Assembly (NCBI GenBank): GCA_027484685.1
Contig: JAIXSO010000038.1
Coordinates: forward strand, 1-47,412
Direction of reading: 5' to 3'
DNA length: 47,412 nt
Source: Bacteroidota bacterium
GTDB taxonomy: Bacteria; Bacteroidota; Bacteroidia; UKL13-3
The translations under genes were made by a program, and so were the position numbers. How positions within the stretch are numbered: the first letter of the stretch is position 1; each line of letters starts with the position of its first letter. Of this stretch, positions 33,494 to 42,139 are shown piece by piece. A model generated the notes under the pieces. It saw only the letters and a list, made by a program, of their open reading frames with translations, did no database searches and was not told where the DNA came from.

Positions 33494-34912
33494 ATGAAAT
33501 ACACTTTACTAAAAATTTATATTTCAAGCCTGCTACTTTTTTCTGTAAATGCTTTTGCATCAGCACCAATAACAGTGGCTATTGCCAATTTTAAAACACT
33601 TGGCGGTGGAAGCGAAAAGGACTTTTTAGGCGCTAGTTGTACTGAAGCTATTTTTGAAATACTTACTAACGACCACACTGTAAGAGTAGTTGAACGCGAG
33701 TATTTAAACAAAATTATTGAGGAGGTAAAACTTCAAAACTCAGGTTTGGTTGATGAAAAAACAGCCATTGAAACAGGGCGACTTTTAGGTGTTCAGTATT
33801 TTGTATTTGGATCAATTACAGCACTTAACGAAACGGTAAAAATTAGTACACGAACTGTAAGTGTAACTACAGGACAAGTAATTAGTAGCAATTCAGTTAA
33901 TGGAAGTTTAAATAACCTTTTTAACCTACAAAGCGAATTAGCTAAAAAAATTACTGCTTCATTCAATATTGGCAATAGCCTTTTACAAGCCTCTAACAAT
34001 CCAAAAGCCGATTTATCAGACATTCCAATTCAGGTTTATAACAAGCTAGATAAGGTGAAAGCATTGGCTAAAACCTTTCCAATATTTGGCCTTGACCCAG
34101 CTAGAGCAAGAAAAAAAGCTGAATATCAAAATGGAATAAACTACTGCGATGAAATGATAGAAACATCGCCAAAACTTTATTTGGCCTATTATTATAAAGC
34201 ACAGTTTTTGTTACAATTAGAAAACAATGAAGAAGCTGAGGCTGCCATAAAAATTGCTAAAAAACTCAACAGTTCAGATCTAGATATAATGCTTTTAAAC
34301 GCCAATTATTTAATGATAAATAATGAAGACAATAAAGCATTAGATTTACTTACTTTTTTATCGAACAAATATCCTGAAGATGCCAGGGTTTGGTATGGAA
34401 TAGCAAAAACTCAAGCATCGGCACTTAACAACCATGCTGCTATAGAGGCTTGTATCAATGCATTAATTTATACACCAAAAATTCCTCAAGTTGAAAAATT
34501 ATTGCAAACTGTTTTAGGTGGCATGCAAGGCATAAGTGCATCTCAATTTTCGAGCAACGATGTGTATGTATTTGCTCAGTTTTATAAAACATTTTTTGAT
34601 TATGGAGTTAGCAAAACCACTGCCGACCTAGCCAAACAAGTTAACCAACTTTGGCCTGCCATGTATTTGCCATATTATGTTATGGGTACTTATCAAGCCA
34701 ATTTAAACAAAACCGAACTAGCTGAAATTTTGCTAAATGATGGTTTAAAATACAACAACACCTACCCTTACTTACACCGAGAACTAGGAAAATTATTAGT
34801 AAATAACAAAAAATGTAAAGATGGAAAAATGCATTTAACCATTTATATGCGCACTGAAACCAGTGTAGACGATTACGACCAAATTCAAAAATATTTAAAC
34901 AAGTGTAACTAA
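33494..34912 (+). CDS. CsgG/FlgT-like exported protein with TPR repeats
   Basis: A 472-residue exported protein, first gene of the envelope cluster. The signal peptide ends NAFASA. Residues about 25-150 have the CsgG/TolB-N alpha/beta pattern: ITVAIANFKTLGGGSEKDFL, VRVVEREYLNKIIEEVK, ETGRLLGVQYFVFGSI and TTGQVISS. Residues about 195-470 are TPR-like helices (YLAYYYKAQFLLQLENNEEA, ARVWYGIAK). The N-domain is shared with curli exporter CsgG, LpoB and the flagellar FlgT, all outer-membrane scaffold proteins. There is no lipobox. The next gene follows after 7 bp. Confidence 0.8.
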   Translation: MKYTLLKIYISSLLLFSVNAFASAPITVAIANFKTLGGGSEKDFLGASCTEAIFEILTNDHTVRVVEREYLNKIIEEVKLQNSGLVDEKTAIETGRLLGVQYFVFGSITALNETVKISTRTVSVTTGQVISSNSVNGSLNNLFNLQSELAKKITASFNIGNSLLQASNNPKADLSDIPIQVYNKLDKVKALAKTFPIFGLDPARARKKAEYQNGINYCDEMIETSPKLYLAYYYKAQFLLQLENNEEAEAAIKIAKKLNSSDLDIMLLNANYLMINNEDNKALDLLTFLSNKYPEDARVWYGIAKTQASALNNHAAIEACINALIYTPKIPQVEKLLQTVLGGMQGISASQFSSNDVYVFAQFYKTFFDYGVSKTTADLAKQVNQLWPAMYLPYYVMGTYQANLNKTELAEILLNDGLKYNNTYPYLHRELGKLLVNNKKCKDGKMHLTIYMRTETSVDDYDQIQKYLNKCN

Positions 34913-34919
34913 AATAAAA

Positions 34920-35990
34920 ATGAAACTAAAAACTACCATAATTACATCATTATTAGCAATTAATAGTTTGTTGGCTCAAAACTCAGATTTATTTTATAAA
35001 AAAACTGAGACCAAGCAAGAGCCAAAAAATAATACTACAAGTACAAATAAACCTATAAGTTTAAATAAAGGTCAAAAACCATTTCAAATTAATATCGGTG
35101 ATGCACGCTCTTGGATAGGAGCGAGTTATAGATTAAACTTATCGAATAGCCTAAGTTTTGGACCAGGTATTCATTTCGGAAAAATGAGTTATGATGAAGG
35201 GGACGAAAACCTTAGTATTTTGGGACTTTCTGGATTGTTTAGATATAAACCTGAAAACGGGTATTTAAAATTTGGGCCGTATGTAAACTTACCAACAGGA
35301 TCCAACAAGGATGAATTTGAAGAAACACCTATTCTGCCTGGCTTAGCACTTGGTGGGGGATACGAATTTAAAAATGGATTTGACATAGGATTGGTTCAAC
35401 ACTTAGATGTATTTTTTTTATTAGAAGTAATTGATGGAGATTATAACCCCTTATGGATGTTACCTTCCTTAAGCTTGAGCTATCATTTTGGAGAACAAAA
35501 ACAGAATGCTGAAACTTCTTACAAAATTGTGCCAAATTACAACTTACCGACTGCCGAGGGCAATTACAAGACAAAAGAAGTCCCTCCAATAGTAAAAACC
35601 GACTACGCTAAATACAATGATGAAGAACTTAAAAAACTTTTAGACCAAGCTACTGCATCAGAAAAATATAATGAAGCAAATGATATTCAAGCTGAAATAA
35701 CTAAAAGAACTGAGCAAAATAAATATGCCAAACTAAGCACCGAAGAATTAAAGAAACAATTAGAAGCTGCTTTAAAAGCTGAAGATTATACCAAGGCAGA
35801 AGCCATACAAAAAGAAATAGACAAAAGAGCAAGTCAGAAAAAAGATAAAACAACAGAAAACAGCAATAAACAACCAGCTAAAAAATCGGTAAAAGATTTA
35901 GAAGAGGAGCTTAAAAAGGCAATGGATGCTGAAGATTACAAGAAAGCAGATGAAATTCAAAAAGAAATAAACAAACTTAAAAAACCGTAA
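34920..35990 (+). CDS. Outer-membrane beta-barrel-like protein with three C-terminal UVR-like helical hairpins
   Basis: A 356-residue exported protein. The signal ends SLLAQ. Residues about 50-195 form a beta domain like the OmpA/OMP_b-brl barrels (ASYRLNLSNSLSFGPGIHFG, LALGGGYEFKNGFDIGL, LSLSYHFGEQ). A linker leads to three repeats at about 230-262, 270-303 and 324-356: LKKLLDQATASEKYNEANDI, LKKQLEAALKAEDYTKAEAI and LEEELKKAMDAEDYKKADEI. They match the UVR hairpin consensus closely. Such hairpins pair with each other, and the next protein carries one more. It is 7 bp from the gene before and 11 bp from the one after. Confidence 0.78.
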   Translation: MKLKTTIITSLLAINSLLAQNSDLFYKKTETKQEPKNNTTSTNKPISLNKGQKPFQINIGDARSWIGASYRLNLSNSLSFGPGIHFGKMSYDEGDENLSILGLSGLFRYKPENGYLKFGPYVNLPTGSNKDEFEETPILPGLALGGGYEFKNGFDIGLVQHLDVFFLLEVIDGDYNPLWMLPSLSLSYHFGEQKQNAETSYKIVPNYNLPTAEGNYKTKEVPPIVKTDYAKYNDEELKKLLDQATASEKYNEANDIQAEITKRTEQNKYAKLSTEELKKQLEAALKAEDYTKAEAIQKEIDKRASQKKDKTTENSNKQPAKKSVKDLEEELKKAMDAEDYKKADEIQKEINKLKKP

Positions 35991-36001
35991 ACTAAACTGA
36001 T

Positions 36002-36922
36002 ATGAAAATTAAATTTTACACCATTTGGTTAGCTGCACTGATAATTGTAACTATCAGTTCATGCTCAAGCACTACCTCTACTGCTAGACTTTATTCTGAA
36101 CAAAGTATTTCTCCAGATAAAGTAAAAATGCGCACAGTGGCTATTATTCCAAACAGAATGCCCATTACCATGCAAGACCCTGAATATTGGAGAAATTACA
36201 ACTGGCAATTAATAGCTAATGATTTTACTGCAAGGGGATTTAGAGTAATTGATTACAATACCACTGTAAACTTATTTACTCGTTCTGGCTTGCCATTGGA
36301 AGACACCAAAAGCTCACGCGATAAATATGCTGACTTTGCAAATGAAATAAATGCTGAGCTAGTGGTAATTCCCTATTACGGAACTTCATATAATATGCAA
36401 AGTGGTTATTTAGAAAACACACACAAATACTTAAGTGTAGGTTCATTACAATTTTATTACGCACCAAAAAATGATTTTATGGCAAGGATAGATTTTGAAG
36501 GTACTTTTGAAACTGCAACTAGTGGGCCAGCTGCGTACGCATACATGAGCGTGTTTCCAATGTTAATAGCAAGTGCTAGTGAAGAAGCGGATGCAGCCAC
36601 AACTGCAAGTACTGTTACTTTAATTGGAAATATTTGTTTATTGATTAGAGACATGAGCGCTCCAACTGACCCTGTAGCAAATTGGAAAACTGCATTTCAA
36701 AGTGGCATTTCAAAAGCTACCAGTGCTTTTTTTGATAAATACAGCCCAAGTGTAAGTAATTATAATTACGAACCAACCAAACAAAATGCTGCTCCTGCTA
36801 CCAGTAATTATGCCAGTTTTAGCATTGAAGAATTAGAATTACTAAAGAAAAATGCTGTTGAGAAAAAAGACTTTAAAAAAGCTGCTGAAATAAAAGCTGA
36901 AATTGATAATAGAAAAAAATAA
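36002..36922 (+). CDS. Lipoprotein with TolB-N/CsgG-like domain and one UVR-like hairpin
   Basis: A 306-residue lipoprotein; the lipobox is ISSC with Cys21. Residues about 40-210 look like another TolB-N/FlgO/GNA1162-type alpha/beta domain: KMRTVAIIPNRMPITMQ, WQLIANDFTARGFRVIDYN and FANEINAELVVIPYYGTSY. The last 32 residues hold a UVR-like unit, IEELELLKKNAVEKKDFKKA then AEIKAEIDNRKK, like those in the preceding protein. Docking between the two through these hairpins is a reasonable inference. It starts 11 bp after the barrel gene and 4 bp before the next gene. Confidence 0.75.
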   Translation: MKIKFYTIWLAALIIVTISSCSSTTSTARLYSEQSISPDKVKMRTVAIIPNRMPITMQDPEYWRNYNWQLIANDFTARGFRVIDYNTTVNLFTRSGLPLEDTKSSRDKYADFANEINAELVVIPYYGTSYNMQSGYLENTHKYLSVGSLQFYYAPKNDFMARIDFEGTFETATSGPAAYAYMSVFPMLIASASEEADAATTASTVTLIGNICLLIRDMSAPTDPVANWKTAFQSGISKATSAFFDKYSPSVSNYNYEPTKQNAAPATSNYASFSIEELELLKKNAVEKKDFKKAAEIKAEIDNRKK

Positions 36923-36926
36923 CACC

Positions 36927-38306
36927 ATGAAAGCAATTATTAAGTACCTATTGGTTTGTGCATTTGTTTTGTTTAAAATAAATACACAAGCTCAAACAGA
37001 AAAACCTGAATGGATTTTGAAATATCCAATCAATTCAGATTTTTTTGTTGGCATAGCCTATGCCGATAAAAAACTTGATAATTACATGGAAGCTGCAAAA
37101 AGTAAGGCTTTGCAAAGTTTGGCTAATGAAATTACAGTAAAAATAATTGGCCAAACTTCGTTACAAACCATTGAAATAAATCAAAAGGTAAAACAAAGCT
37201 ATATTAGCTCTGTAACTACCGAAACCATTAAAGAGCTAGAAGGCTACGAATTAGTTGATAGTTGGCAAGACAAACACCAATATTGGGTTTACTACAGACT
37301 AAGTAAAAAGGCCTATTACCGAGCCAAAAAGGATAAAGCAAATTCAGCTTTACAAATTGCTAAAAACTATGTAATGCTAGGAATGGAAAGTGTTAATGGA
37401 GGCAATTACAAACAAGGTTTGAACTATTATTTTATGGCTACCAATCAAATTCAAAACTACTTGTACTTTGAATATGATATAGAACTAAAGCAGCAAATAA
37501 ATGCACTGTATCAGGATGCTTACAAAAATGTGAGTAATTTTTACGCTCAAATTAACATTAAAGCACCAAGTCAGCATATTAAGCTTAAACCCTATCAATT
37601 AAACAATTATATACTAAGCTTAAATATTCAAAACAAACAAAGTTTAAAACCCATTACCAATTTCCCTTTCGTAATAAAAGTAGTTAGTGGCCAAGCCATT
37701 ATTGAAACTAACAACAAAACAGCTAACGAAAATGGAAATTTAAATTTTAAAATAAATAGTTTTGGAACCAAAAGTAAAGTACACAGTTTTAAAATAAGTA
37801 TTGATAAAGACGATTTGTTTAACGAATACATTAAATCGAATAACTTATTGGCAATTGATTTATATAAAAAGGTAAATTGCGAAAACACCATTGAAATAGA
37901 AACTGAAAATTTGTTTGTAATTATTAAATCAAACGAAAAAGCATTTAATGTAAAAACAAAAGAACAGTTTTTAGCCAGTGCTATAAAAAGTTATTTATTA
38001 CAAAATGGCGTTAGCATTACCAATAATATAAATGAAGCTAACTATTATTTAACCATCGAAGCTAACACCACCAAAGGAAACGTAGCATATGATATGCAAG
38101 TAGTTTATTTAGATGCAACAATTGTACTTAATGAAAATAGAAGAGCACCAAGTTTTACTAAAAACTTTAACGGAGTAAAAGGCCTGAAAGCTACTGAAAG
38201 TGCCGCTTCGTACGATTCATATCAAAAGCTAATTCGTAAGTTTGACGATGAACTTTATGTAGATTTACTAAAAGAAATGGGCTTAACTAACAATACCGAA
38301 GAATAA
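36927..38306 (+). CDS. Exported LPP20-like domain protein
   Basis: A 459-residue exported protein from the ATG at 36927 (signal ends NTQAQ). Residues about 25-140 match the LPP20 domain of H. pylori LPP20 and Vibrio FlgP: FFVGIAYADKKLDNYMEAAK, ALQSLANEITVKIIGQTSLQ and SWQDKHQYWVYYRLSKKAYY. The middle (about 140-330) is helical, then Ig-like; the C-terminal 100 residues include an extra alpha/beta unit (FLASAIKSYLLQNGVSITNN) that looks like a TolB-N-type strand order. It starts 4 bp after the lipoprotein gene. The call rests on pattern recognition of the N-domain. Confidence 0.72.
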   Translation: MKAIIKYLLVCAFVLFKINTQAQTEKPEWILKYPINSDFFVGIAYADKKLDNYMEAAKSKALQSLANEITVKIIGQTSLQTIEINQKVKQSYISSVTTETIKELEGYELVDSWQDKHQYWVYYRLSKKAYYRAKKDKANSALQIAKNYVMLGMESVNGGNYKQGLNYYFMATNQIQNYLYFEYDIELKQQINALYQDAYKNVSNFYAQINIKAPSQHIKLKPYQLNNYILSLNIQNKQSLKPITNFPFVIKVVSGQAIIETNNKTANENGNLNFKINSFGTKSKVHSFKISIDKDDLFNEYIKSNNLLAIDLYKKVNCENTIEIETENLFVIIKSNEKAFNVKTKEQFLASAIKSYLLQNGVSITNNINEANYYLTIEANTTKGNVAYDMQVVYLDATIVLNENRRAPSFTKNFNGVKGLKATESAASYDSYQKLIRKFDDELYVDLLKEMGLTNNTEE

Positions 38307-38348
38307 AACAACAAACAAAATCAATATAAACAACAACAAATTAAGCAC

Positions 38349-38381
38349 TTGCCAATTAAAATTAAACTTATAATAAGTTTG
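38349..38381 (+). promoter_or_regulatory. Predicted promoter with overlapping palindrome before the LPP20 lipoprotein gene
   Basis: TTG (38349-38351) and TAAGTTTG (38374-38381) are spaced 22 bases, as in Bacteroidota -33/-7 promoters. The -7 box overlaps the perfect palindrome AAACTTAT-A-ATAAGTTT (38364-38380), so a repressor bound there would block it. Confidence 0.55.
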
Positions 38382-38441
38382 GCACAACAATTGGAAGTAT
38401 TAAAAAAAATTTATTAATTGCAAAAAAAACAACTAAAAATT

Positions 38442-39014
38442 ATGAAAAAGTTTATTTATGTATTTGCTGCCGTATTAGTAGTAGCAGCTGTATCTTGTAA
38501 ATCGAAAAAAGGTGCTAAAACCACTGTTGACAAAGACTCAGGAATGGAAGTTTTAAACTTACCTTGCGATGAGTACAGAAGTTCAACCGAAACCGCTTTT
38601 AGAGCCACACAATCACAAAAAAGTTCTGACTTATCGTTATCGCGCGAAAAAGCTTTAGTAGTAGCTAAACAAAGATTATCTGGATTAGTAGAAACTAAAG
38701 TAAAATCGGTAACTGATAGATATGTAGATGAATATCAAACCAATGGTGGTTTAGAAATGAAAGGTAAATACAATAATTTAACCCGTGAAATCATCAACCA
38801 ACAATTAAACGATGTGAAAATTCTTTGCGAAAAAACTGTTCGCGAAAAAGATGGTTCGTTTACAACTTATGTAGCAGTAGAAATGAGTAAAGATGCTTTG
38901 AAAACTGCTATGGAAAGCAAACTTTCAGACAAAGCTAAATTAGCTGTAGATTACGACAAAATGAAGTTTGAGCAAATCTATAACGAAGAAATGAAAAAAT
39001 TAGACGAAAAATAA
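38442..39014 (+). CDS. LPP20-family lipoprotein
   Basis: A 190-residue lipoprotein; start chosen at the ATG at 38442, giving a signal that ends AVSC with Cys19. The mature part carries the LPP20 pattern: LSLSREKALVVAKQRLSGLV, TREIINQQLNDVKILCEKTV and SFTTYVAVEMSKDALK. Its order of strand and helix matches the domain in the preceding protein. It ends in a short helical, charged tail. A separate promoter lies in front, so this gene may also be expressed without the rest of the cluster. It is closed by a strong terminator. Confidence 0.75.
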   Translation: MKKFIYVFAAVLVVAAVSCKSKKGAKTTVDKDSGMEVLNLPCDEYRSSTETAFRATQSQKSSDLSLSREKALVVAKQRLSGLVETKVKSVTDRYVDEYQTNGGLEMKGKYNNLTREIINQQLNDVKILCEKTVREKDGSFTTYVAVEMSKDALKTAMESKLSDKAKLAVDYDKMKFEQIYNEEMKKLDEK

Positions 39015-40291: not shown

Positions 40292-42139
40292 ATGAAGAGA
40301 ATTTTAATTGCAGCATTTTTATTGTTTTCAATAAATAGCTTTGCACAAACTGTAGTGCCTTGTATTACAGACGAGCTTTATGTAAAATCTATACAAGAAA
40401 ATCCACTATTAAAAGTTGAAGAAGAACGTGGTAATGAACTTGCACGTCAATATGCCTCTCAATTAAGCTTGGCAAAAAAAGGAACTGTAATATATGTGCC
40501 TGTAGTTTTTCATGTAATACATAAATATGGTTTCGAAAATATTTCGCAAGCACAAGTAAATGATGCATTGAGAGTTATGAATGAAGATTTTAGAAAGATG
40601 GCAGGAACTAAAGGAGGAACAAGTACCGATAGCCGCGCTGCTGATGCTGAAATTGAATTTAGATTAGCACAAATAGATCCTAATGGAAACCCAACTGATG
40701 GTGTTAACAGAATTTACAATGCCTCTGAAACTGATAATGGAACCGATGTAACCAAAGCTTTAAGCTATTGGGATAGCAATAAATACTTTAACGTTTGGGT
40801 AGTTAATGTAATTAACAGCTCTTCAGCCCCATCGGGCTCTATAATTTTAGGTTATGCTCAATTTCCTTTTTCGAGAACATCAAGACCAAGCACAGATGGA
40901 ATTATAGTAAGAGCTGACCAAATTGGCAACACGGGTGTTGCCCAAACTAGCCAAGCAGGAAGAACAGTAACTCACGAAGCAGGCCATTGGTGTGGTTTAT
41001 TTCATCCGTTTCAAGGTGGTTGTGTAGGCGGTACTTCAAGTAATTGTGCTTCACAAGGCGATCAAGTGTGCGATACACCTCCTGTAGCAGCATCTACAAG
41101 CGGTTGTCCTAACAGCCAAAATTCTTGCACCAACGATGTTCCTGATTTACCAGATAATATTAAAAACTATATGGATTATGCTGATGGAACTTGTATGGAT
41201 ATGTTTACAGAAGGCCAATCAACAAGGATGAAAAGTTTAATGCAAACCTTTAGATCAAACATTTACTCTACAAATAACTTAAGCGCAGCAGGTTTAAATG
41301 CTGATGGTACATATAAAATTTTAACTCCAGCATCAATTAAAGCTCCTTACTTAATTGACTTTAATGGCAATACACCTTATTGGTTTATTGAAAATTATAT
41401 GAGTGAAAACAATGGTTGGAAAGTTAATTATCAAGTAGGTTCAAACGATGGAACAAGCATGTTTATAAATAGCTATGCTAATGGTGCTGCAAGTACTTTA
41501 AATACACGCAATGCTTTTCATACTATAAATGTTGATATTACGGCATTATCTCAAGCTACATTACGTTTTAAAGTAGCTCACGCCAGAAGACTTACCAACT
41601 CTAGTGATAAATTGAATATTTTTGTATCCGACAATTATGGTAGAACAGAAATTTTAGCTAAAACATTTTCGGTTTCAGAAATGGAAACTGCTGATGTATT
41701 AGGAACAGCTGCTTTTGTTCCTACTGCTGCGCAATGGAAAACTTTAAGCTTAGATTTAACTCCTTATAAAACTTACACAAACTTTAGAGTTAGATTTGAA
41801 TTACAAGCTTTAAGAGGTAACAATACTTTTATTGATGATATTCAAATTGGAGAATTTGTAAATGGTTTAGACGATGTTAGAAATAATATTAATTTAAGCA
41901 TTAGCCCCAATCCTAGCAATGGTTTATCAACTATCTCGTTTAATAATATTAGTAAATCAAATATAAATATTAACCTATTTGATTTAAGTGGTAAATTTAT
42001 TAAAAACATTACCCAAAGTGAGTTAGCTGCAGGTGAACAAGAAATTGAATTAAATGCTAATGATTTAGTAAAAGGGGTTTATTTTATTAAAGTTGAACAA
42101 AACGACTTAAGTTATACTACTAAGTTTATTGTTAACTAA
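40292..42139 (+). CDS. Secreted M43-family zinc metalloprotease with T9SS type A sorting domain
   Basis: A 615-residue exported protease. The signal ends NSFAQ. The M43 catalytic domain (about 65-330) has the extended zinc motif VTHEAGHWCGLFHPF near residue 228, a Cys-rich loop after it (GCVGGTSSNCASQGDQVCDT) and a Met-turn in KNYMDYADGTCMDMF. A jelly-roll-like domain (about 350-520) follows. The last 80 residues form a T9SS type A domain: LSISPNPSNGLSTISF, LFDLSGKFIKN and GVYFIKVEQ. The protein is expected to be released or surface-attached by T9SS and to degrade extracellular protein. A terminator follows. Confidence 0.95.
   Translation: MKRILIAAFLLFSINSFAQTVVPCITDELYVKSIQENPLLKVEEERGNELARQYASQLSLAKKGTVIYVPVVFHVIHKYGFENISQAQVNDALRVMNEDFRKMAGTKGGTSTDSRAADAEIEFRLAQIDPNGNPTDGVNRIYNASETDNGTDVTKALSYWDSNKYFNVWVVNVINSSSAPSGSIILGYAQFPFSRTSRPSTDGIIVRADQIGNTGVAQTSQAGRTVTHEAGHWCGLFHPFQGGCVGGTSSNCASQGDQVCDTPPVAASTSGCPNSQNSCTNDVPDLPDNIKNYMDYADGTCMDMFTEGQSTRMKSLMQTFRSNIYSTNNLSAAGLNADGTYKILTPASIKAPYLIDFNGNTPYWFIENYMSENNGWKVNYQVGSNDGTSMFINSYANGAASTLNTRNAFHTINVDITALSQATLRFKVAHARRLTNSSDKLNIFVSDNYGRTEILAKTFSVSEMETADVLGTAAFVPTAAQWKTLSLDLTPYKTYTNFRVRFELQALRGNNTFIDDIQIGEFVNGLDDVRNNINLSISPNPSNGLSTISFNNISKSNININLFDLSGKFIKNITQSELAAGEQEIELNANDLVKGVYFIKVEQNDLSYTTKFIVN

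Follow-up and report, generated by a model that had tools for sequence, protein, structure and literature searches.

An accessory cassette of four envelope genes beside a resident LPP20-like lipoprotein gene in a Bacteroidota genus

The window analysed here, a 47,412-nucleotide stretch of a Bacteroidota bacterium (lineage UKL13-3; assembly GCA_027484685.1, contig JAIXSO010000038.1), carries five head-to-tail open reading frames (ORFs) on the + strand at positions 33494-39014, referred to below as G1 to G5. The intergenic gaps are 7, 11 and 4 bp within G1-G4 and 135 bp before the last gene, which bears out the closely spaced series described in the initial annotation. However, the five-gene cluster as first drawn mixes two things, as G1-G4 form an accessory cassette and G5 is a resident gene separable from it. 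The features are listed below, with the coordinates of G4 and G5 counted from their ATG and with signal peptides and lipobox read by eye.

33494..34912, + strand: G1, exported protein of 472 residues with a CsgG/FlgO/LpoB-like domain followed by tetratricopeptide repeats (TPRs), assigned by Pfam
34920..35990, + strand: G2, putative small outer-membrane beta-barrel (from its sequence pattern) with three C-terminal UVR-like hairpins
35613..35978, + strand: the three UVR-like hairpins of G2 (residues 232-263, 272-303 and 322-353)
36002..36922, + strand: G3, lipoprotein with a predicted PelC/FlgT-middle/TolB-N fold (structure model) and one C-terminal UVR-like hairpin
36818..36913, + strand: the UVR-like hairpin of G3 (residues 273-304)
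36927..38306, + strand: G4, exported protein with an LPP20 domain, a helical part, an MG/Ig-like domain and a FlgT-middle/LptE-like domain (Pfam and structure model)
38379..38393, + strand: -24/-12-like element before G5, TTGGCAC-N5-TTG
38442..39014, + strand: G5, putative LPP20-like lipoprotein of 190 residues, resident and separable from the cassette

The G1-G4 cassette is present in 3 of 10 genomes of the genus (the window, G006 and G009), and among the 64 genomes of the family the three with a whole G1 all belong to the genus. Where G006 has 6797 bp, its close relative G003 has 106 bp (BLAST boundaries), and the longer stretch in G006 encodes, besides G1-G4, a 131-aa lipoprotein and a second protein of the barrel-UVR type. 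Both other carriers have the 131-aa lipoprotein and the second barrel-UVR-type gene between G1 and G2, while the window copy lacks them. Conservation of the gene order in relatives was thus found as synteny in two other genomes, with the exact cassette limited to three. G5, on the other hand, has a strong match in all 10 genus genomes, and 50 of the 64 family genomes have either G5 or a paralog of it. It adjoins aroC and an M43 protease gene without G1-G4 in G003, G001, G002 and G008, stands without G1-G4 in G004 and G007, where the contig stops before the protease gene, and adjoins a large LPP20 gene in G005. The M43 metalloprotease, which has a type IX secretion tail, is encoded outside the cassette at window positions 40292-42139 and its gene adjoins aroC in most genus genomes.

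A TTGGCAY-N5-TTG element lies upstream of G5 in all 10 genus genomes. In the window this -24/-12-like (sigma-54-like) element matches just once, both strands counted, and base shuffles give an expectation of 0.02 for the + strand. A TTG-N22-TAAGTTTG hit ahead of G5 was discarded, there being 17 such matches in the window on both strands, and a scan for sigma-70-type promoters found 21 against 24.1 expected. G5 is probably under separate control from G1-G4. Because it has a conserved promoter-like element of its own and is present where G1-G4 are absent, G5 falls outside a single five-gene unit of the kind first proposed. Pfam gave no LPP20 match for G5 itself. Within the alignment of its family, 9 of 12 members matched LPP20 at E <= 1 (best 5.2e-5), profile-profile comparison gave a probability of 30.6 (E 5e-4), and Lpp20 (5ok8) came up at E 3.8. 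G5 appears to be an LPP20-like lipoprotein through its relatives.

Synonymous divergence (dS) between G006 and G009 is low for G1 (0.42), the second barrel gene (0.18), G2 (0.37) and G3 (0.43), and high for G4 (1.34), G5 (0.90), aroC (1.69, partial) and the M43 gene (1.52), with values above 1 being saturated and giving rank order only. The low dS of G1, the second barrel gene, G2 and G3 relative to their surroundings points to exchange, and the front block seems for the most part to have been transferred between lineages after the surroundings had split; the small lipoprotein gene lies within this block but breaks the pattern (dS 1.28). At the cassette ends the longest common string is 9 bp against a shuffle mean of 9.6, and being no longer than in shuffles it indicates no target-site repeat. 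Searches of mobile records took in G1, G3 and G4 for plasmids and G4 for phages; G1 and G3 had no plasmid match, G4 had no phage match, and one distant plasmid match of G4 (24.6% identity over 66%) is the Bacteroides operon described below. Short TAAAATAA repeats lie at gene junctions in the window (34905-34925) and in locus L063 (6410-6470 and 8120-8180), and a deletion between such repeats could have removed the 131-aa lipoprotein gene and the second barrel gene from the window copy. The 131-aa lipoprotein of G006 and G009 was considered as a DUF4810 protein and rejected, as the G006 copy has no such Pfam match.

The same comparisons bear on a different explanation, a variable surface locus (a receptor, an adhesin or a barrier to phages or competitors) that would be displayed on the barrel, with the ring-type proteins supporting its assembly. 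When the window G2 is compared with that of either other carrier, identity is 58-59% in the barrel half and 85-91% in the UVR half, and between G006 and G009 the 131-aa lipoprotein is 50% identical and G1 93%. The exchange signal in dS (0.18-0.43 against 0.90-1.69) would also fit, as would the lack of two genes in the window copy. However, G2 of G006 and G009 is 95% identical in the barrel half and 86% in the UVR half, so that a single allele difference accounts for the variation, and the dS of the small lipoprotein gene fits poorly with one clean transfer. With three alleles only and a surface position that is itself inferred, we regard a variable surface locus as quite improbable.

The first cassette protein, G1, has a CsgG domain by Pfam (55 bits, cut-off 20.8), its best stretch covering profile positions 7-106 of 210, as well as an LpoB family match of 30.5 bits (above the cut-off of 22.3) and a FlgO family match below cut-off (E 5.3e-4). 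This CsgG/FlgO/LpoB-like domain spans residues 23-166 approximately, and the TPRs start at about residue 209. The ratio of nonsynonymous to synonymous divergence (dN/dS) of 0.04-0.09 indicates strong purifying selection on G1. CsgG builds its pore from a pair of beta-hairpins that are inserted in the CsgG domain and span the membrane, and it carries a lipoprotein signal. Alignment with two full-length CsgG-family proteins showed both inserts to be absent from G1, and no lipobox cysteine was seen in its signal peptide. Since both inserts are missing, a CsgG-type pore is unlikely and was rejected for G1; a secretion pore was among the roles initially suggested for the cluster.

No CsgG/TolB-N match was found for G3 by sequence (Pfam; FlgO E 0.22), and its fold was assigned from a structure model. 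Foldseek ranked PelC best (E 1.5e-5), with GNA1162 at 4.1e-4 and LpoB at 5.2e-4, and VIA-align gave Z values of 13.8 for PelC (155 residues), 12.8 for FlgT, 11.5 for CsgG, 11.2 for TraT, 11.1 for TolB and 9.4 for GNA1162. G3 is accordingly modelled as a PelC/FlgT-middle/CsgG fold at residues 37-251 approximately, including a variable, partly hydrophobic stretch at residues 173-222. Two G3 relatives have hydrophobic stretches at about residues 175-192 and 198-217, and the window G3 has one at 201-216 alone, which in the model (low pLDDT, the predicted local confidence score) sits after the last strand. TraT-like membrane helices seem unlikely for G3, the modelled position differing from that in TraT, and membership of the GNA1162 family by sequence was rejected, since this genome has no GNA1162 match and the likeness is in fold alone. 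Searches of 296 genomes of the phylum scored 5 to 7 candidates per genome and their counts are therefore lower bounds; at least 6 matched the G3 profile, the window genome alone over its whole length and five by the UVR end alone.

An LPP20 domain was identified by Pfam at residues 27-126 of G4 (40.5 bits, cut-off 25.9). In the structure model, residues 207-325 resemble an MG/Ig-like domain (alpha2-macroglobulin, VIA-align Z 8.5, close to what common arrangements score), and residues 325-455 match the FlgT middle domain (Z 10.9 and 10.8), LptE in LptDE (10.3) and TraT (10.3). The single chain of G4 is thus predicted to join LPP20 to a FlgT-middle/LptE-like domain, also of FlgT-middle/TraT/PelC type. 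Overall, the anticipated set of FlgO/FlgP/FlgT-type domains is present, with CsgG/FlgO in G1, LPP20 in G4 and a FlgT-middle-like fold, tied with other families, in G3 and G4; the CsgG/TolB-N and LPP20 folds claimed for the cluster were recovered in G1, G3 and G4 themselves, and for G5 via its relatives alone. The same genome has a further large LPP20 gene paired with a CsgG-like TPR lipoprotein gene of the c8 family (L037 8133-10988, G000:C17), and a third (L038 8293-9693, G000:C55) that stands alone. The idea that G4 is a recent copy of these two was rejected (separate branch, length 2.08), and in the tree G4 groups with G100 with support of 88/89 only.

G2 is presumed from its sequence pattern to form a small outer-membrane beta-barrel at residues 21-192 approximately, followed by the three hairpins. 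Pfam gave one UVR match (21.7 bits, cut-off 21.5), which scored 22.7 bits at 35880-35984 in a genome scan; the third hairpin alone reaches the family cut-off and the other two were assigned by reading. The hairpin of G3 scored 20.0 bits (below the cut-off of 21.5) in the Pfam scan and 22.9 bits (above it) in the genome scan, and the UVR scores of both proteins are marginal. Elsewhere, UVR hairpins serve DNA repair and protease proteins for docking in the cytoplasm. Of the UVR matches listed in the genus, some lie in frames of the sizes of UvrB, UvrC, ClpC and a bifunctional nuclease; the others belong to G2, G3 and the second barrel gene of the cassette, or to a few frames that are short or cut. 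Exported UVR hairpins would thus appear peculiar to the cassette, signal peptides having been examined in the cassette frames only. For UVR domains in periplasmic or outer-membrane proteins, a literature search gave only a paper on Chlamydia c-di-AMP signalling, which appears unrelated.

Together, the TPR, presumed barrel and PelC-fold parts of the cassette could also be read as a secretion or export pore of the CsgG or PelBC type, with G2 as channel, G3 as ring and G1 as TPR adaptor. PelBC is described as a beta-barrel paired with a ring of twelve PelC lipoproteins (PMC12141448), and PelC is the best fold match of G3. However, G1 has neither CsgG hairpin insert, a barrel of only about 170 residues would be small for a channel, and none of the cassette genes could be assigned to a synthase or fibre-subunit family, leaving such a pore a poor candidate.

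The large LPP20 protein recurs in Bacteroidota as part of a trio that comprises a CsgG/LpoB-type protein, a large LPP20 protein and a small LPP20 lipoprotein and is uncharacterised in this phylum. Searches of one literature collection found no paper joining LPP20 with CsgG, nor any on DUF6175, LPP20 family lipoproteins or the LPP20 domain, and among papers on LPP20 lipoprotein operons of Bacteroidetes no title concerned this gene group. Across 39 large-LPP20 loci, most of which belong to one family and are not independent, a small LPP20 gene lies near on the same strand in 25, a CsgG/LpoB-type gene in 13 and both in 6, with one or both partners close by in 32. The order CsgG/LpoB-type, large LPP20, small LPP20 was found in G042 (L055), G100 (L158), Bacteroides finegoldii (L160, on a record labelled plasmid) and the window lineage, and in G147 (L157) the small LPP20 gene is two ORFs from the large one. 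The CsgG-type profile used, c8, was made from 16 proteins including those of L037, L042, L053, L054 and L086, the last of which entered via the G1 query and favours the CsgG count. By Pfam, the c8-type proteins of L042 (CsgG E 0.026) and L054 (LpoB 20.0 bits) are below cut-off, that of L037 has no CsgG or LpoB match, and L158 has CsgG above cut-off (38.6 bits). In the phylum-wide search, the large LPP20 profile has matches in at least 21 of the 296 genomes, and in 9 of these the match spans most of the profile.

The combination of CsgG/LpoB-type, large LPP20 and small LPP20 genes is not accidental. An absence of joint function, with unrelated envelope genes adjacent by chance, would agree with the independence of G5 and with the rarity of the set in the genus (3 of 10), but against it stand the 4-11 bp gaps within G1-G4, the occurrence of UVR-like hairpins on G2 as well as on G3, the recurrence of this domain combination across four lineages and the purifying selection, and we consider it extremely improbable.

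Other gene groups were seen around these loci. At L158 (3109-7554) a DUF4476 gene (Pfam) is followed by a TPR/CsgG-like lipoprotein gene and then by the large and small LPP20 genes, and a gene of the same family as this DUF4476 gene precedes a TPR/CsgG-like lipoprotein gene at L087, L092 and L094. Two adjacent CsgG-like frames lie at L085 (2-2803, G002:C125) in a genus non-carrier, with neighbours that have no match to the compared sets.

The main rival to an assembly of the cassette proteins is control of peptidoglycan or of the spacing between outer membrane and cell wall, in which G1 and G3 would activate a cell-wall enzyme in the manner of LpoB or brace it, and the distance would be set by the LPP20 proteins. 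In its favour are the LpoB scores above cut-off in G1 and in the Bacteroides operon (Pfam), LpoB structures among the Foldseek matches of G3, and a lytic transglycosylase gene adjoining the large LPP20 gene in G147 (L157). On the other hand, the LpoB fold is common to many unrelated functions, and the cassette genes include no cell-wall enzyme, although few neighbours of the 39 loci were Pfam-scanned. Cell-wall control is, in our judgement, unlikely.

We instead propose that the accessory cassette G1-G4, as a derived form of the Bacteroidota trio, encodes a periplasmic assembly that is tethered to the outer membrane, and give this an even chance of being correct. The genes present, their domain families, the presence or absence of the cassette and the recurrence and order of the trio are observed; the joint complex and its job are suggested by analogy. 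G3 (PelC-like lipoprotein), G4 and resident G5 (LPP20) would oligomerise to a ring or lattice beneath the outer membrane; G1 (CsgG/FlgO-like with TPRs) would cap the ring or recruit clients; and G2, the presumed small barrel, would anchor the ring to the outer membrane, its UVR-like hairpins pairing with that of G3. The inserts from which CsgG forms its pore are missing from G1, and for this reason we favour a scaffold or anchor over a channel in its own right; it could hold a surface structure or link outer membrane and cell wall.

Several observations weigh against this proposal. TolB-N/SHS2 folds also occur in non-ring proteins (LptE, TolB, LpoB). The C-terminal match of G4 to FlgT is tied by Z with LptE, HpaA and TraT structures, and Foldseek ranked LptE first with FlgT missing among the best 50 rows. 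Both models are shallow, built on 3 sequences each, with mean pLDDT of 54 for G4 and 57 for G3, and hardly any of the LPP20 domain in the G4 model exceeds pLDDT 50, so that its assignment rests on Pfam. No more than 3 genomes are known to have the full cassette. Neither partner accompanies the large LPP20 gene in 7 of the 39 loci, of which 5 are the second large LPP20 copy of the genus, and the count profiles derive in part from the counted loci themselves. G1 shares at most a short weak patch with the Bacteroides LpoB-like protein, so the first trio member may differ in origin. G3 was rejected as a counterpart of the Bacteroides DUF6175 protein, with no profile match and no sequence link.

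On a wider scale, Bacteroidota may possess a non-flagellar outer-membrane ring machine with a core of CsgG/LpoB-type, large LPP20/FlgT-like and small LPP20 proteins, its building kit common with the flagellar H ring, and some lineages may swap in cassettes whose exported UVR hairpins dock an outer-membrane barrel to the periplasmic ring; we put this forward tentatively and hold it to be rather doubtful. FlgO, FlgP and FlgT are read as flagellar parts. Recurrence of their domain set as a gene group in bacteria that lack flagella would mean that such ring parts have a broader envelope function, and flagella may have borrowed them.

The proposal of a periplasmic ring or scaffold draws on ring formation by FlgP, FlgT/FlgO, PelC and TraT. 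FlgP, Lpp20 and FlgT have a common SHS2 fold in which ring formation goes with a sequence insert, and FlgP forms rings (PMC12222027); FlgT and FlgO build the Vibrio H ring (PMC6504787); and TraT forms a decamer ring (PMC12658005, PMC11733297). G3 resembles the TraT surface exclusion decamer in fold (Z 11.2) and in being a lipoprotein with hydrophobic stretches. Unlike G3, whose hydrophobic stretch follows the last strand, TraT has two membrane helices (loop 136-139) that precede its beta-hairpin (180-205) (PMC12658005). PelC, which appears as a dodecamer in PDB titles among the Foldseek matches, is the best fold match of G3, also a lipoprotein, and the cassette likewise holds a presumed barrel and TPRs. 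In contrast to PelBC, barrel and TPRs are on separate proteins here, no Pel synthesis family occurs among the cassette genes, and G3 and PelC are 9% identical. The CsgG-DUF4810-GNA1162 (DUF799) cluster is similar in combining a CsgG protein with a GNA1162-fold lipoprotein, but its CsgG is full length, and the extra lipoprotein of the window's relatives is not DUF4810. GNA1162 matched in 10 of the 296 phylum genomes (9 above cut-off) and not in this genome. Clusters of CsgG, DUF4810-type and GNA1162 genes were seen in two genomes of the phylum sample, at L153 (4479-6312) and L154 (5788-8073), where Pfam confirmed CsgG in both and DUF4810 in L153.

The Vibrio H ring and the Campylobacter FlgP basal disk share with the window the joint encoding of CsgG/FlgO-like, LPP20 and FlgT-middle-like domains. 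The likeness is at domain level, and the cassette differs in adding TPRs, an MG-like domain, a presumed barrel and UVR-like hairpins. In agreement with the absence of flagella first noted for the region, no FlhA-family gene (PF00771, a single marker) was found in the 10 genus genomes, the window genome being 99.87% complete, and the assembly is not flagellar in this genus. Among 20 relatives the FlhA family occurs in G042 alone, a member of another family that also has the trio, which may there be linked to flagella or type III secretion. In Helicobacter pylori, Lpp20 (HP1456) is tied to the motor accessory FapH (PMC11756786).

A close counterpart of the trio is the B. finegoldii operon, which encodes LpoB-like, DUF6175, LPP20 and LPP20 proteins in the same order as the window with DUF6175 inserted. 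Further genes of the LPP20 group there (L160 8559-11083) encode an unnamed protein of 335 aa and a protein that weakly matches transglutaminase (E 0.088). The operon differs from the cassette in that its LpoB-like and DUF6175 proteins are not clearly homologous to G1 and G3 and that no UVR match was found among the six genes scanned. Its large LPP20 protein is a G4 homologue (257.7 bits along the entire A5 profile, at residues 1-446 of 625) and its small LPP20 protein a G5 homologue (34% identity), and because a version of the trio is thus found in a Bacteroides record, its role is testable in the laboratory.

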